Source: Hymenobacter sp. GOD-10R (GTDB taxonomy: Bacteria; Bacteroidota; Bacteroidia; Cytophagales; Hymenobacteraceae). Taken from it: a stretch of DNA of 64,000 bases. The stretch is taken from positions 5,773,001-5,837,000 of the forward strand of contig NZ_CP141184.1 of NCBI RefSeq assembly GCF_035609205.1, given 5' to 3'. Each line of letters starts with the position of its first letter. The stretch's first letter is position 1. The translations under genes and the position numbers were made by a program. Positions 1 through 5,243 of this stretch are shown one piece after another. The notes below the pieces were generated by a model that saw nothing but the letters and a program-made list of their open reading frames with translations, was not told the origin of the DNA and ran no database searches.

Positions 1-81
1 TGCGGACCTAGGTCGTTCAAGAAAATCGTTTTAAGGTAAACAACGACTTCAACCACCCCAGCGTCAGCTAAAGCTGCCGCG

Positions 82-105
82 TCCCCTCCTCTAATGAGGA
101 GGGGA
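82..105. terminator. Hairpin downstream of the tubulin-like gene
   Basis: Ten-base arms (82-91 and 96-105) pair perfectly around a TAAT loop, beginning about 10 bases beyond the stop codon of the leftward tubulin-like gene. No T-run follows on the minus strand, so it may be a U-less terminator or an mRNA-stabilising hairpin. The 81 bases to its left hold no recognisable gene. Confidence 0.5.
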
Positions 106-115
106 GCTGTTGTTC

Positions 116-1564
116 TTACACCACTTTCACCTTCTCCTCAAACGCCTTATCTGTCACATCATAGAACAGCTCGACGAGCTTCTTGAAGTTGTCGGGCTCG
201 GCGATGGTCTTCTCGGTTTTGTTGAGAGAGTCGAGGAAGTAGTTGTGGTTGATGCCTTTGTTAAAGAAATCAGTCCATTTCTTTTCGACGGGCTTGCCAG
301 CAATCATGGCGTTAAAGTCTTCGGTAGCTAGGTCGAAGGGACGGAAAGCGCGGCGATTTTGGCCTAGCTCTTTCAGCCACTCATCCACACCAAACTCGGG
401 GCTGTGCAAGATATTTTGCAGCTCCCTGAAGATAGGCTCGTTGCGCAGTGCATAGTCGAGCTTCAAGTTGTCGTGGTACGGCGCCTTGTCAGTTGCGAGG
501 AACTGCCGGTGGTAGCGCGTGAAGTAGAGCAGCTGCGTGAGGTGCTTGGCCATCAACTCGCGTGATTCGTCGGGCAGGTGGTTGAACTGCACCTCGGGCG
601 CATCGGTGGCAAGGCCATACTCGTGGAAGTGCGGACCACCCGTGCGGAGTTCGGCCGCCGAGTACTTCATGAAATCTACGATACTCAGGGCCGCGAGCAG
701 TTCGATGAGGTGGGCCTTGTTGCGCTGCTGGGTGCCGCCAGGCTGGTTTTCGTAAGGCGTATCGGGCGTATCGGCTAGGTAGTATAAGGCGTTCAGGCCT
801 TGCAAATTGTGCTCGTAGTAGCTGAGCGCCGCTTTGGTTTTCGTGAGGAAGCTGTTGGAGTCAATAACCGAGTTATCCTCCGATTGCAGGGCGAAGTACG
901 GCATCACCGTCACGGCGCCGGTGGGCGCGTCGCGCAGGTAACGGGCGTTGCTCAGGCGCGTGTTGGTGTCCTTCAGGTTTTTGAGCATGAGCGGGAAGCC
1001 CGCCGCACCCGTCCCGCCGAAGATGCTCGACACGAAAAACACCCGGTCGCCTTCCTGGAAGTTATCAGCGAAAAAGCGGATTTCGGGCGATTCCACCAGC
1101 TTGTTCAGCACGATGCTGCCCACATTGGGCGACCCGCGAAAACCAATCGTCAACGGACTTTCGAGGTTATCTTGCGTGAACAGTAAATCCACCAAACCCT
1201 TAGAGTCAACCGACAAACCATCGTAACTGAGGTACTGCCGGAAGCTCTGGTTGATGCCGCCGAAGTCGAAGATGAAGGTGTCCTTCACCGAGCCGTTCAC
1301 ATCCTGGCTAATGCCGCTGAGCGTGCTGATGTCGGTTTTGAAGAAGCCTTCTTCGCGCGGACCTAGCTTTTTGTAAATCTGCTGGTAGCTCTGCAACAGG
1401 GCTACCGTACGGTTCATGTCGCCGTTGTGGGCGTCGGGGTCAATGATGATGGGCACCACCCGGTCGCAGTTAGGCAGTTCCACGCCCGCCGCCAGCAGCA
1501 TCGTGAGCGAGCGAATAACGCGGGAACCTGTGCCGCCGATACCGAATAAAAAGAGTTTAGCCAT
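116..1564 (-). CDS. Tubulin/FtsZ-like GTPase family protein
   Basis: A 482-residue protein with the hallmarks of a tubulin/FtsZ-superfamily nucleotide-binding domain. A glycine-rich first loop, GIGGTGSR, lies at residues 8-15, and the tubulin signature GGTGAAG lies near residues 183-189 after a hydrophobic strand (VFFVSSIF). No signal peptide or membrane segment is visible, so it should be cytoplasmic and may polymerise with GTP. It is too long and too divergent to be the division protein FtsZ and resembles the 'tubulin-like' families found outside the cell-division cluster. It is the last of four leftward genes, after an AT-rich unknown, a three-pass membrane protein and a vWA-like lipoprotein. 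Published comparative genomics has linked non-FtsZ tubulin relatives with vWA proteins in a proposed membrane-remodelling system. The fold call is fairly sure; the function is inferred. Confidence 0.78.
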   Translation of the reverse strand: MAKLFLFGIGGTGSRVIRSLTMLLAAGVELPNCDRVVPIIIDPDAHNGDMNRTVALLQSYQQIYKKLGPREEGFFKTDISTLSGISQDVNGSVKDTFIFDFGGINQSFRQYLSYDGLSVDSKGLVDLLFTQDNLESPLTIGFRGSPNVGSIVLNKLVESPEIRFFADNFQEGDRVFFVSSIFGGTGAAGFPLMLKNLKDTNTRLSNARYLRDAPTGAVTVMPYFALQSEDNSVIDSNSFLTKTKAALSYYEHNLQGLNALYYLADTPDTPYENQPGGTQQRNKAHLIELLAALSIVDFMKYSAAELRTGGPHFHEYGLATDAPEVQFNHLPDESRELMAKHLTQLLYFTRYHRQFLATDKAPYHDNLKLDYALRNEPIFRELQNILHSPEFGVDEWLKELGQNRRAFRPFDLATEDFNAMIAGKPVEKKWTDFFNKGINHNYFLDSLNKTEKTIAEPDNFKKLVELFYDVTDKAFEEKVKVV

Positions 1565-1595
1565 GTGGGTTGGGCTTGAAATTCTGATTTACAAC

Positions 1596-2051
1596 TCAGC
1601 CTATGAGTGAGTCGTCGTACTCACAATTGTATATGGCATTTTGTAAAACCATATAGATGTCTTCAAAATGTCGTGACTGCTTGATCAATGTTATTAAGTG
1701 ATCTGCCTCGATGAACTGAGTCAAAACATCATCGTCGGCTTCAACACATCGTACGACCCAATCCTTAAGATCATCAAGCGTATACTCTCCTACCTGGTAC
1801 CATATGCTTTCTACTGGAACTTTGTCCCAATAAACATAGGAGAGTAGCTTTTGCCACTTGCCGAAGCTACGTTTCAAATGGAGCCTCCGTCTAAACAGTC
1901 TACCAGAAGCATCAAAATACAATTCTGGTTTTCGTTGTGATTCATAATAGCTATACAAGTTACAATACCCAAGCTCCTGCAAATCGTCTACGAAGTAGCA
2001 GTAAGGATTATCTTCCTCGTGTGCACAAAGCAGAGGAAAGATCGGGGTCAT
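1596..2051 (-). CDS. Hypothetical protein in tubulin-like cassette, AT-rich
   Basis: A 151-residue acidic, aromatic-rich protein that I do not recognise. It has no signal peptide or membrane span. The C-terminal half reads as alpha-helical, with many Asp, Glu and Tyr residues. It begins 11 bases after the stop of the upstream membrane-protein gene and ends 31 bases before the tubulin-like gene, so it is probably co-transcribed with both. Its DNA is clearly richer in A and T than either neighbour, and it largely lacks the GC-rich codons they use. That suggests a later insertion into the cassette or a gene under different selection. It may be a partner or regulator of the tubulin-like protein, or unrelated cargo. 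Confidence 0.65.
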   Translation of the reverse strand: MTPIFPLLCAHEEDNPYCYFVDDLQELGYCNLYSYYESQRKPELYFDASGRLFRRRLHLKRSFGKWQKLLSYVYWDKVPVESIWYQVGEYTLDDLKDWVVRCVEADDDVLTQFIEADHLITLIKQSRHFEDIYMVLQNAIYNCEYDDSLIG

Positions 2052-2062
2052 ACTCGCTCAAA

Positions 2063-2455
2063 CTAAAACGGCGTCGTACTCGCGTTGGTCGAGCCTTTGC
2101 GCAGAATGACGGAAAACAGGAAGTAGAACAAGAGGCCGTACACCGCGTTCAGCGTGGCCAGCCAGTAGATGTAGCTGTGGTCGGTTACTTGCTGCGCTTT
2201 AGCCTGCCACACCACCACGATAAATGCAAGCAGGGCATTCAGCACCAAGAACAGCGTCCAGTGGCGGAGCTTGTTGAAGGTGGCCACACCCATCGCGCGA
2301 TTGATGAGGTAATAGAAAATAATGACCAGCGCCAGCGAGATACCTAGGTTCAGCAGGCCGATATTGGGGAATACAATCTGGCGGTACACGGGCGTGTCGG
2401 CCGGGGGCTGGGGTGTGCCGATGAGTTCGTAGAGGAAGCGGAAGAAGCTTTGCAT
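2063..2455 (-). CDS. Three-pass inner-membrane protein of the tubulin-like cassette
   Basis: A 130-residue protein with three predicted membrane helices, near residues 30-50, 66-84 and 95-116, separated by short basic loops (for example RHW near 64). It has no recognisable catalytic motif. It sits between the vWA-like lipoprotein gene (97 bases upstream) and the AT-rich unknown gene (11 bases downstream), all leftward. The plausible role is a membrane anchor or coupling piece between the periplasmic lipoprotein and the cytoplasmic tubulin-like protein. This is inferred from topology and order only. Confidence 0.7.
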   Translation of the reverse strand: MQSFFRFLYELIGTPQPPADTPVYRQIVFPNIGLLNLGISLALVIIFYYLINRAMGVATFNKLRHWTLFLVLNALLAFIVVVWQAKAQQVTDHSYIYWLATLNAVYGLLFYFLFSVILRKGSTNASTTPF

Positions 2456-2551
2456 AGAAGGAGAGGAAACGCCAACGTTAGCTGGGAGAGCGGTACACGA
2501 TATGCGTCGGAATAAGAATACTGCGAAGAAGGTGCCAGCTAAAAGCTAGCG

Positions 2552-3934
2552 TTAGTCGGCGGGTTGCAGCGTGAGCGGAATCTGAAAGATAGGCGCTTGG
2601 TTTTGCTCATCTGTCGTGACGGCCGCTACGCCATCTACCAGACTACTTAAGGCGAAAGTTTTGGCGCCGACTTGATTGATGTTGCTGTCATTCTTAGTTG
2701 TCCACTGAGTTATCCACATTGGGCGCTTATCCTGGAGGATAACTTGGAGTGGCCGGGCGGCTTTGCCCATCTTGGTAACGCGAATTTTGACAAAATGCGT
2801 GTATTGTGCTTCTGGTCCGCTGCTGGCGCGCGTTTGATCAGTGGCGCTAAACACACTCACGATCTTTGCATCCGTGTCTTGCCCAGTTAGTTGCAGGTTT
2901 GCTTTCAGGTGACCTAGGTCTTGGTACAAAGCGGGCAGCGTTTGCAAATTCATCCCGAGTACAAACTCCACAGGCTGTTGCGCTGATACTTCGCTTACGG
3001 CTATGGTGTGGTAGCTAGCTCCCGCTGCGCGCTTGCTAGCATCTTTCTCGCCGTAGTACCAAGCACCTTGGTTCTGAAACTTATTCAGCAAGGAAGAAGC
3101 TGGCACCTGGTACTTCACGCCAAAGTGCGCTTGCTCACTAGGAGCTTTTTTCAACAAGGCTGCATCGAAGCGACGCACGGCATCGGCCGGACCAATCACC
3201 CACATATAATACGGTATATCCGTATCACAGCACCGATTGATGCGCTTGGCTGCTGTTTTCATGGCCGGATAGAAAGCGCCTTTGAAATCAGACGTGTGGC
3301 CGTAAACCGACACGGCTAGGTCGGAACGACCAGCAGCATTGAGGGCGTCGATGATATCCGTTTTAATGTACGGCACGGCTCCAGCGTTACGCGGCGCGTA
3401 GATAAAGTCCGAAATCAGCACGCTGACCGCGTTGGGCTGGTAGTAGTGGCTCACTAACGTATCCAGAATGGCCGGAATACTCGTGCTGCTGGCCGGCTCC
3501 CGAATGCCTTCGCGCACTGTCGTTTCCAACTGCTGGTATGAATCGCGGTACGGCTTCTCTTTGATGCGGTAGAACGTTTTACGCTGAACGCTGGCGCTCC
3601 GGTTTACATCGGAAAGAAACTGTGCTACGTGCTGCTGAAAACGTGTGTTTTGGGCATCAGCGCCGGTTTTGGGCATGAAGCCTTCCATCGAACCGGACAC
3701 CTCCAAGAACACGTTCACTTGCTTGAGCGGACCAGTTGTGGCCGCAACGGAGCTAGCTTCGACTTCCGGCGAGGAAGCAGCAGCGGGCGTTTTATCTACA
3801 GAAGCTTCTGTAGTTTCGGCAGCTTTCGTGTTGCCCGCATCTGACTTGAGGTCGTCGCGGGAGTAGCAGCCAGGAAGTAGCAAAGCCACTGCCAATAGCC
3901 CTGGCAGTAGTTGAGAGAAGTGAGGACGTTGCAT
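2552..3934 (-). CDS. Lipoprotein with degenerate von Willebrand A domain
   Basis: A 460-residue exported lipoprotein. The N-terminus has a hydrophobic stretch and a lipobox ending LLPGC (Cys23), then a low-complexity Ala/Thr/Ser linker to about residue 70. The next segment matches the start of a vWA domain, but the metal-site motif DxSxS reads EVSGS at residues 78-82. A later strand, SVLISDF (Asp176), fits the MIDAS aspartate loop. The rest looks like beta-sandwich sequence without a known family. It is the first gene of the leftward cassette that ends in the tubulin-like protein. Neighbouring vWA and tubulin-like genes have been proposed to act together in membrane remodelling. The lipoprotein call is firm; the vWA call is moderately sure, and the Asp-to-Glu change may alter metal binding. 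Confidence 0.7.
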   Translation of the reverse strand: MQRPHFSQLLPGLLAVALLLPGCYSRDDLKSDAGNTKAAETTEASVDKTPAAASSPEVEASSVAATTGPLKQVNVFLEVSGSMEGFMPKTGADAQNTRFQQHVAQFLSDVNRSASVQRKTFYRIKEKPYRDSYQQLETTVREGIREPASSTSIPAILDTLVSHYYQPNAVSVLISDFIYAPRNAGAVPYIKTDIIDALNAAGRSDLAVSVYGHTSDFKGAFYPAMKTAAKRINRCCDTDIPYYMWVIGPADAVRRFDAALLKKAPSEQAHFGVKYQVPASSLLNKFQNQGAWYYGEKDASKRAAGASYHTIAVSEVSAQQPVEFVLGMNLQTLPALYQDLGHLKANLQLTGQDTDAKIVSVFSATDQTRASSGPEAQYTHFVKIRVTKMGKAARPLQVILQDKRPMWITQWTTKNDSNINQVGAKTFALSSLVDGVAAVTTDEQNQAPIFQIPLTLQPAD

Positions 3935-4053: not shown

Positions 4054-5055
4054 CTAGCTATAGTCAATCTCCGTATTGTCGCCGATGTTCAGGCTGTGGT
4101 TCAGACCACGGAACGAAGCGTCGGAGCCGACAATGCAATCGTGGAGCACGGCTTGGCGCAACTCGCTGTAGGAGCCAATAATCGAATCCGCCAATATGGT
4201 GTTCTCCACAATCGTTCTGTCGCCGATGGCAACGTTAGGGCCGATGATCGAGCAGGAAATCTGGCAGTTCTTGCCAATGCTCACCGGCGGAATAATAATG
4301 GTGTTCGGAAACTCAGGCAGCGACTCCGTCCGCATAAACTCGGGCCGGTTCAGCAAGCGGGCGTTGGCTTCAAGCAACGTCTCTTTGCGGCCACAGTCAA
4401 ACCAGTTATCCACCGAAACGGTCGTCATCTCCTCCCCTTCCTGAATCAGCGTCATCAGTGCATCCGTTAGCTGAAACTCGCCGTGCGTGCGGTGCTCCTG
4501 CTCAATCAACTGCCCCAAGGCGTCAACTAACCGTTCAGGATGAGCAATTTTGTACAGCCCAACCATGGCATAGTTGGACTTCGGAATTTTCGGCTTTTCT
4601 ATCACTTTCGTGACGCGACCACCGGGTCCGGTTTCCACCAAACCGAAAAGGGTTGGGGTTTTAACTTCTCTTACCCCGAGCACGGTGCCTGGCATTTGCA
4701 GCACGGCACCTAGGTCGACATCAACAATGGTATCACCCAGTAAAATGAGGATGCCTTCTGCGTTGTAGCGAAATTCTTCACGGGCAATCCACAAAGCATG
4801 ACCAATGCCTTCGCGAGGCTCCTGCACCACGAAGGTGGATTTTATCTGTGGATATTGGCGGCGCACATAACTCTCTACCTTTTCACCTAGGTAGCCAATG
4901 ATAAATACAAAGTCCTGAACGCCAGCGCCCAGAAGCCGGTCGATGATATGCCCCAGGATGGTATTACCAGCAACGGGCACCAGCGACTTGGGCTGAGTAT
5001 GCGTATGCGGACGTAGGCGAGAGCCGATGCCGGCAACGGGAATGACAGCTTTCAT
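4054..5055 (-). CDS. Sugar-phosphate nucleotidyltransferase with beta-helix tail
   Basis: This 333-residue enzyme belongs to the RmlA/GlmU nucleotidyltransferase superfamily, which makes NDP-sugars from NTP and a sugar 1-phosphate. The N-terminus carries the signature GxGxRLRPxT followed by PKSLVPVAG. The last roughly 90 residues show hexapeptide-like Ile/Val spacing (ISCSIIGPNVAIGDRTIV), typical of a left-handed beta-helix. I start at 5055 (MKAVIPVAG), because the family begins at this strand; an ATG 24 bases upstream adds eight residues that look unrelated. It diverges from lemA across about 190 bases. Glucose-1-phosphate thymidylyl- or uridylyltransferase is most likely, but the exact sugar cannot be read from the sequence. 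Confidence 0.85.
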   Translation of the reverse strand: MKAVIPVAGIGSRLRPHTHTQPKSLVPVAGNTILGHIIDRLLGAGVQDFVFIIGYLGEKVESYVRRQYPQIKSTFVVQEPREGIGHALWIAREEFRYNAEGILILLGDTIVDVDLGAVLQMPGTVLGVREVKTPTLFGLVETGPGGRVTKVIEKPKIPKSNYAMVGLYKIAHPERLVDALGQLIEQEHRTHGEFQLTDALMTLIQEGEEMTTVSVDNWFDCGRKETLLEANARLLNRPEFMRTESLPEFPNTIIIPPVSIGKNCQISCSIIGPNVAIGDRTIVENTILADSIIGSYSELRQAVLHDCIVGSDASFRGLNHSLNIGDNTEIDYS

Positions 5056-5243
5056 GAACAAAAGACGTGGCGTAAGCACGCAAAATAGTGAATCGGCGCC
5101 GGAGCACTGAGGGCCAGCACAACCGCCAGCGCCTTAATTCGTACTTTTCAGCGCACCAGCGCCTGCCGACGCTAACCACGTTGGCCCGCTTCAGGTTTCG
5201 AATGTCTTTCTCTCTCTTCCACTTTTTTAATTTCTCTCTCCCT

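Follow-up and report, generated by a model that had tools for sequence, protein, structure and literature searches.

A membrane-remodeling complex of vWA, FtsZl1 and OmpA proteins was predicted by Makarova and Koonin (2010; PMC2875224). In Synechocystis, the sll0443-sll0449 operon is described as encoding a Tubulin_2 protein (Sll0445), a protein with an FtsA domain (Sll0446) and one with a DivIC domain (Sll0447); in the reported interactome all three associate with pilus proteins and photosystems, and phototaxis was impaired in each mutant (PMC9880817). A putative CRP site is recorded for the same transcription unit (PMC2633013), sll0443-0445 appear in the RNA-seq table of a lexA mutant with ratios of about 4-6, an increase by our own reading of the table columns (PMC4759255), and deregulation of Sll0445 and Sll0446 is noted for a comFB mutant (PMC12313861). 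GTPase-centered conflict systems that include tubulin and vWA proteins, or HSP70, have also been described (Kaur et al., 2020; PMC7159879). Bacterial ion motors are reported to power flagella, type 9 secretion, gliding, Ton and Zorya systems, and Zorya function to need a transmembrane Asp and peptidoglycan-binding Arg residues (PMC11890865). Here we describe an operon of Hymenobacter sp. GOD-10R (GCF_035609205.1, contig NZ_CP141184.1) which joins genes for proteins of predicted tubulin and actin/Hsp70 folds with a vWA lipoprotein and a Zorya-like motor pair. It was found at the left end of a 64,000-nt stretch of DNA (positions 5,773,001-5,837,000; hereafter the window).

The operon comprises nine genes, A to I, all on the minus strand. 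An initial annotation, made from the letters of the window, had recorded the first four as leftward and close, and the open reading frames (ORFs) of the window confirmed the positions, strand and close spacing of A to D. Past an intergenic segment at the left end of the window (1-115) the operon runs on for five genes in the same direction (1,155, 135, 515, 489 and 229 aa) in the adjoining stretch L002 (L002 position = window position + 16000), which adds an actin/Hsp70-fold partner and an ion-motor pair to the initial annotation. We are highly confident that a tubulin/FtsZ-fold protein (D), an actin/Hsp70-fold protein (E), a vWA lipoprotein (A), a three-pass (B) and a single-pass (G) membrane protein and a ZorA/ZorB-like pair (H and I) are encoded here as one operon and inherited together.

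Gene D (window 116-1564) encodes 482 amino acids, and the GGTGAAG tubulin signature noticed initially begins at residue 183. When the window protein was aligned with 58 of 120 listed relatives (alignment A1; alignment A2 used 59 of 120), residues 183-187 (GGTGA) were identical in 59/59 sequences, as were G10, G11, G13 and G183-G184-T185-G186, in which we recognize loops T1 and T4 by our own reading. The predicted structure of D has the tubulin/FtsZ GTPase-domain fold; with the 59/59 identity, this makes the motif more than a chance occurrence. A standard FtsZ is encoded separately elsewhere in the same genome, and the model supports the initial view of D as a non-FtsZ protein of tubulin fold. 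In profile searches with the single sequence the match was weak, and the Pfam cut-offs were not reached for PF00091 (hidden Markov model (HMM), 19.5 bits, cut-off 33; 36/59 aligned members match at E ≤ 0.01) or for PF13809, the FtsZl1 family (15.5 bits, cut-off 27; 32/59 at E ≤ 0.01). PF13809 had no match in genome G000 at E ≤ 1e-3. The FtsZl1-type C-terminal coiled coil and helical domain were not seen in the model of D, whose longest helix past residue 330 has 25 residues. Being short, below the PF13809 cut-off and without a long coiled coil, D is not a standard FtsZl1 member. An apparently standard FtsZl1, unlike the short D family, was seen in another Bacteroidota genome (G123:C1:1033485-1034594; a 1,215-aa frame, PF13809 1e-52). 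Candidates for the T7 catalytic acid in D are E288 and E315 (59/59) and D297 (40/59).

Gene E (L002 12446-15913) encodes 1,155 amino acids, of which residues 586-1037, preceded by a large N-terminal part, match the actin/Hsp70 ATPase fold. The protein resembles Hsp70 as much as MreB. Scores against FtsA profiles were below cut-offs (PF14450, 20.8 of 31.8 bits, E 5.1e-4; TIGR01174, 14.7 of 175.85), and "cell division protein FtsA" is the NCBI name of some E proteins. D and E are fused into one polypeptide in some relatives. Membership of E in SrfB was rejected, the single match being of motif length with an E value of 0.09.

Genes H (L002 8660-10129; 489 aa) and I (L002 7726-8415; 229 aa) encode the MotA/ZorA-like and MotB/ZorB-like members of the motor pair. 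H has three hydrophobic helices followed by a cytoplasmic-tail region of ~290 residues, and I a transmembrane helix with Asp20 and an OmpA-like periplasmic domain; the initial annotation had proposed looking left of the window for an OmpA-like partner. In profile searches of PDB, the channel part of H matched ZorA (8qyy, 5.6e-4) and TolQ (0.016) and its tail matched coiled coils; several top PDB matches of H, to designed or other coiled coils, were set aside as uninformative. I matched 8vvn_B (8.4e-13), 8qyd_F (6.1e-8) and 8vvi_A (2.8e-4), and MotB only at 0.22. The 8qyd sequence is common to entry 8qyy, where the partner is named ZorA; 8vvn is labeled MotB-related and, from its 696-aa partner, is probably the Zorya structure of PMC11890865. 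The PADLOC ZorB1 model matched I at 2.1e-13, and ZorA models matched some of 28 H members at up to 7.5e-10 (commonest single model in 8/28), values to which the coiled coil may contribute, while NCBIfam scores were far under their cut-offs (ZorB1, 24 of 400 bits; ZorA2, 18.1 of 700). Judged by sequence similarity, H and I are nearest to ZorA and ZorB. In the alignments (H, A3, 28 of 33; I, A4, 27 of 33), the OmpA Pfam domain was matched by 15/27 I members, and Asp20, Ser162 and Arg165 were identical in 27/27. By eye, Asp20 and Arg165 appear to correspond to those needed in Zorya, and likeness to the motor family suggests that H and I may assemble in a 5:2 ratio.

The remaining core genes encode membrane and periplasmic proteins. 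A (window 2552-3934) is a 460-aa lipoprotein whose lipobox Cys was identical in 33/33 aligned relatives (A5, 33 of 39 listed coordinates used), as was the MIDAS Asp176; the first position of the MIDAS-like motif ([DE]xSG[SG]M ... T ... SDF) is Glu in 25/33, the window's own A included, and Asp in 8/33. The alignment of A matched 16 Bacteroidota vWA proteins in hhalign with an E value of 3e-6 (probability 88, the MIDAS motifs falling in line with each other), whereas four controls gave 0.1-0.39, which upholds the initial description of an exported vWA-like lipoprotein; the window's A by itself had no Pfam vWA match and none in PDB by profile. B (window 2063-2455) is, as first described, a three-pass membrane protein, with three hydrophobic helices in 130 aa. 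G (L002 10328-11875; 515 aa), a proposed adapter, has a signal-peptide-like N-terminus by eye, one transmembrane helix at 207-225, a Pro-rich stretch and a C-terminal domain.

A conserved neighborhood in related genomes, on which the initial annotation had staked its proposal, was recovered. We compared 81 loci, consisting of the window's own and 80 named loci from Hymenobacteraceae and close relatives, among them Cesiribacter and Nafulsella. Using iterated HMMs, which here and in the 25 distant loci below include some of the sequences they recover, A, B and D were found in 81 loci; the counts for E, G, H and I were 80, 77, 79 and 76, and 73 loci had the full set of seven. Of the eight incomplete loci, four are cut by contig ends (L035, L076, L083, L092) and three lack G (L073, L081, L082). 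First-round, independent values were 81 for A, B and D, 80 for E, 79 for H, 76 for I and, by tblastn, 53 for G. Order and strand of the operon genes were likewise seen by tblastn. A D relative occurs in 61/61 Hymenobacter genomes, in two only at 36% identity and in two in broken pieces, and the gene upstream of the operon is the same in 33/33 loci (L015-L047). Genomes with D or E in pieces are G003, G005 and G475. The genus-wide presence of D relatives with a constant neighbor argues for a core locus rather than a mobile island, and for a housekeeping role in the genus. Counted as genomes, the same 94 of 120 family members contain E (E < 1e-200; 96/120 tallied, with the motif-only genomes G515 and G526 excluded) and I (E ≤ 1e-15), and a family genome with two E copies also has two I copies. 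The system is absent from 26/120 family genomes and is therefore not essential. Outside the family it is rare: D was found in 12/392 Bacteroidota genomes, four of them Hymenobacter and two only at 1e-13 to 1e-14, and E with E < 1e-40 in 18/396 genomes of the class (136/396 tallied, most rows being ~30-70 residues at one motif in ~300-550-aa proteins). No D relative was found among 50,697 phage records at E 0.01, and a phage tubulin reading of D was rejected on this ground. Plasmid partition (TubZ/ParM-like) was rejected as the principal explanation because of the 61/61 presence in the genus and the membrane and periplasmic partners.

Twenty-five further loci (L095-L119) separate a core from its neighbors. 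D and E were each found in 24 of them, and H and I by HMM in nine, which include a degraded locus and an extra copy from a family genome. In a tenth motor-type locus (L102) the core is flanked by genes for an OmpA domain (1.2e-16) and for MotA_ExbB (1.1e-4, narrowly below cut-off). Versions of the core also occur in Prevotella (L103) and on cyanobacterial plasmids (L104-L106); for the plasmids, the first HMM round gave 4e-38 to 3e-47 for D, 7e-10 to 3e-19 for E and 2e-5 to 7e-9 for A. L105 and L106 retain the order and strand of the A, D and E relatives, A is divergent in L104, and B had no HMM match in these three cassettes. A gene next to the L104 cassette has a sub-threshold DivIC match (PF04977, E 0.004). 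L107 contains E and G, with A, B and D not found; D is broken in L099, which lacks E and G, H is in two pieces in L112 and E in two pieces in L115. Loci without the motor carry other neighbors, namely WG-repeat genes (L095, L098), TM2 (L105) and TerD (L101, L117). In our own reading, the vWA/membrane/tubulin/actin core is conserved and its output modules are exchangeable, the motor being the usual module in Hymenobacteraceae. The TerD-type genes (L101 1172-3063; L117 657-1841) lie just downstream of very diverged tubulin/actin-fold cassettes and hint at a link to tellurite/stress (Ter) systems; one of three L101 ORFs was tested by Pfam (4.3e-51), and the others and L117 were assigned by eye. 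L118 (G497:C1:417900-437300) is a second, diverged operon copy including the motor, and its genome carries the usual copy as well.

The two great families of the cytoskeleton have the tubulin fold and the actin fold, and members of the tubulin and actin/Hsp70 folds are largely polymer formers; this conserved operon joins both with an ion motor. The combination of a tubulin-like and an actin-like protein with a vWA lipoprotein and a Zorya-like motor suggests a machine linking the bacterial cytoskeleton to the cell wall. Because the motor and the actin-fold gene are present or absent together, D and E are sometimes fused and the gene order is fixed, we favor a single envelope-spanning machine with an envelope or motility role, as a tentative reading that is possible rather than probable. 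H and I would form a 5:2 channel, anchored to peptidoglycan through the OmpA-like domain of I, that lets the machine draw on ion energy and reach the wall. H would be turned by ions flowing past Asp20 of I, and its long cytoplasmic tail would act on a D-E assembly tethered at the inner membrane by B and G. Nucleoside triphosphate (NTP) binding by D and E could switch assembly and motor on or off, and A may read or grip a periplasmic partner. If the Synechocystis tubulin/FtsA-domain pair is a guide, the likeliest output would be force exerted on the envelope or on an apparatus for surface motility or pili, and it is the phototaxis data from that organism that lead us to favor a part in surface motility or in the working of pili. 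In lineages that lack H and I, the same core would work with another output module. A bolder version, in which a peptidoglycan-anchored 5:2 rotary motor drives a cytoskeleton, its tail directly turning, loading or gating a mixed tubulin-actin assembly that is sometimes one fused polypeptide, seems doubtful. If true, the proposal would provide a case of a cytoskeleton acted on by an ion motor and would tie the cyanobacterial phototaxis cluster to Zorya-type motors. The 2010 FtsZ-like/vWA prediction becomes testable in cultured Hymenobacter.

Several observations weigh against this machine. Comparisons by sequence alone gave weak results: the D profile reached PDB with a best E value of 0.43 (CetZ), a sequence-level link of D to FtsZ by hhalign was rejected (E 0.16, no better than controls), and the best PDB match of the E profile was 0.012, to an actin-family protein. 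Foldseek gave D a best E value of 1.1e-3 with template-modeling (TM) scores of 0.2-0.3 across the whole chain. Polymer formation by D and E is presumed; no FtsZ-type T7 acid was assignable. The operon's own I has no Pfam match at E ≤ 1, and L069 lacks I despite enough DNA. The 94/26 match between E and I is a tally of genomes rather than of independent losses. Of the 25 distant loci, 15 (some cut by contig ends) gave no motor match, cyanobacterial cassettes included, so the core does not need it. We know of no experiment on any Bacteroidota member, which agrees with the initial annotation in so far as it knew of no experimental study of the arrangement. That statement does not extend to Synechocystis, where disruption mutants exist for a gene pair to which these two domain types are ascribed; photosystem effects are also reported there (PMC9880817), and the Synechocystis proteins are likened to D and E by description, not by sequence.

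The alternative that survives best is a Zorya-like or other conflict (anti-phage, stress) system, in which the motor would sense wall damage and the tubulin/actin assembly would be the effector or a threshold switch. Defense stays open because the motor resembles Zorya, H and I being nearest to ZorA/ZorB; tubulin, HSP70 and vWA genes are described as components of GTPase-centered conflict systems (Kaur et al., 2020; PMC7159879), TerD-type genes stand beside two distant loci, and unrelated small genes turn over in slots between the core genes in Hymenobacter. The nine genes, however, had no PADLOC, Pfam or NCBIfam match to the Zorya effectors ZorC, ZorD or ZorE, nor to a nuclease, and the presence of D throughout the genus, the constant upstream neighbor and the negative phage search all speak against a conflict role, which we regard as unlikely. 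We consider it improbable that D and E are non-polymerizing NTP switches of a membrane-attached chaperone or signaling complex whose motor powers export or lipoprotein handling. Both folds belong largely to polymer formers, no DnaJ match was found and the sole GrpE match, to the coiled tail of H, stays below threshold (16 of 152 bits), although E is as Hsp70-like as MreB-like, the T7 acid of D is not assignable and MoxR ATPases are said to have vWA domains as co-chaperones (PMC7159879). Least credible is a duplicated FtsZ/FtsA-like division or shape apparatus whose motor would play a Tol-Pal-like part where the cell constricts or grows out, which the tubulin-fold/actin-fold pairing, the NCBI name of some E proteins and the sub-threshold FtsA match would favor, but which fits poorly with a separate standard FtsZ, absence from 26/120 family genomes and the 1,155-aa size of E with its large N-terminal part.

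Genes C (window 1596-2051; 151 aa) and F (L002 11927-12334; 135 aa) appear to be accessory. Their families are present in 4/80 and 3/80 named loci, respectively. C had no match at E ≤ 1 in Pfam, NCBIfam or PADLOC. The H. cavernae counterpart of C (L015) shares 77% identity with it, and that of D 99.6%. Across L015-L047, unrelated small genes of ~100-230 aa turn over in the slots B/D, D/E, E/G and H/I, and C and F are two such genes; the slot genes may be plain insertions, and some are transposase, GIY-YIG or DUF559-type by eye. Upstream of A, by ~120 bases and on the same strand, lies a nucleotidyltransferase-like gene (by eye; window 4054-5079), which recurs in 33/33 loci of L015-L047 and may share a transcript with the operon. 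A 738-aa ORF, prolyl oligopeptidase-like by eye, lies ~180 bases past gene I.

Compared with described systems, the operon has parts of several. A ZorAB/MotAB-type motor together with a tubulin-type gene in one operon was not found in the titles and abstract openings of the literature searched, most subscription papers lying outside it. As in the FtsZl1/vWA systems, a non-FtsZ tubulin-family protein stands beside vWA, membrane and OmpA-like proteins, with A and I as the vWA and OmpA-type neighbors, and a membrane-associated complex is predicted. FtsZl1 proteins, however, are described as mostly having a coiled-coil and helical C-terminus, and their operons as often including a P-loop GTPase or kinases (PMC2875224), whereas D has 482 aa, falls under the PF13809 cut-off and has an actin-fold partner and a MotA/MotB-type pair. 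A P-loop GTPase, one of the partners that the initial annotation had proposed to look for, was matched by none of the nine genes in Pfam or NCBIfam (E ≤ 1); a term check of the PubMed Central main text of PMC2875224 found no actin-like or MotA gene named in FtsZl1 operons. The GAP1-N2 conflict systems likewise place tubulin with vWA, and HSP70 in another theme, close to the membrane, but are described as centered on TRAFAC GTPases with GAP1, the tubulin theme being restricted to Firmicutes and Actinobacteria (PMC7159879). No TRAFAC GTPase match was found among the nine genes in Pfam or NCBIfam, the absence of GAP1 being less secure since the presence of its model in these libraries was unchecked, and the terms MotA and ExbB do not occur in the main text of that paper.

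FtsZ-FtsA also pairs a tubulin fold with an actin fold, but D and E are not the division pair: the standard FtsZ is encoded elsewhere, E is far larger, and D and E are fused in some relatives. The Synechocystis operon shares adjacent tubulin-type and FtsA/actin-type genes, by described domain types, and differs in that no motor pair is described there (PMC9880817). With Zorya ZorAB the operon shares a channel subunit with a long cytoplasmic tail and an axle with a transmembrane Asp and an OmpA-like domain (PMC11890865); it differs from Zorya in that no effector was matched, H and I fall far under the NCBIfam ZorA/ZorB cut-offs, and the partners of this motor are cytoskeletal-fold proteins and a vWA lipoprotein.

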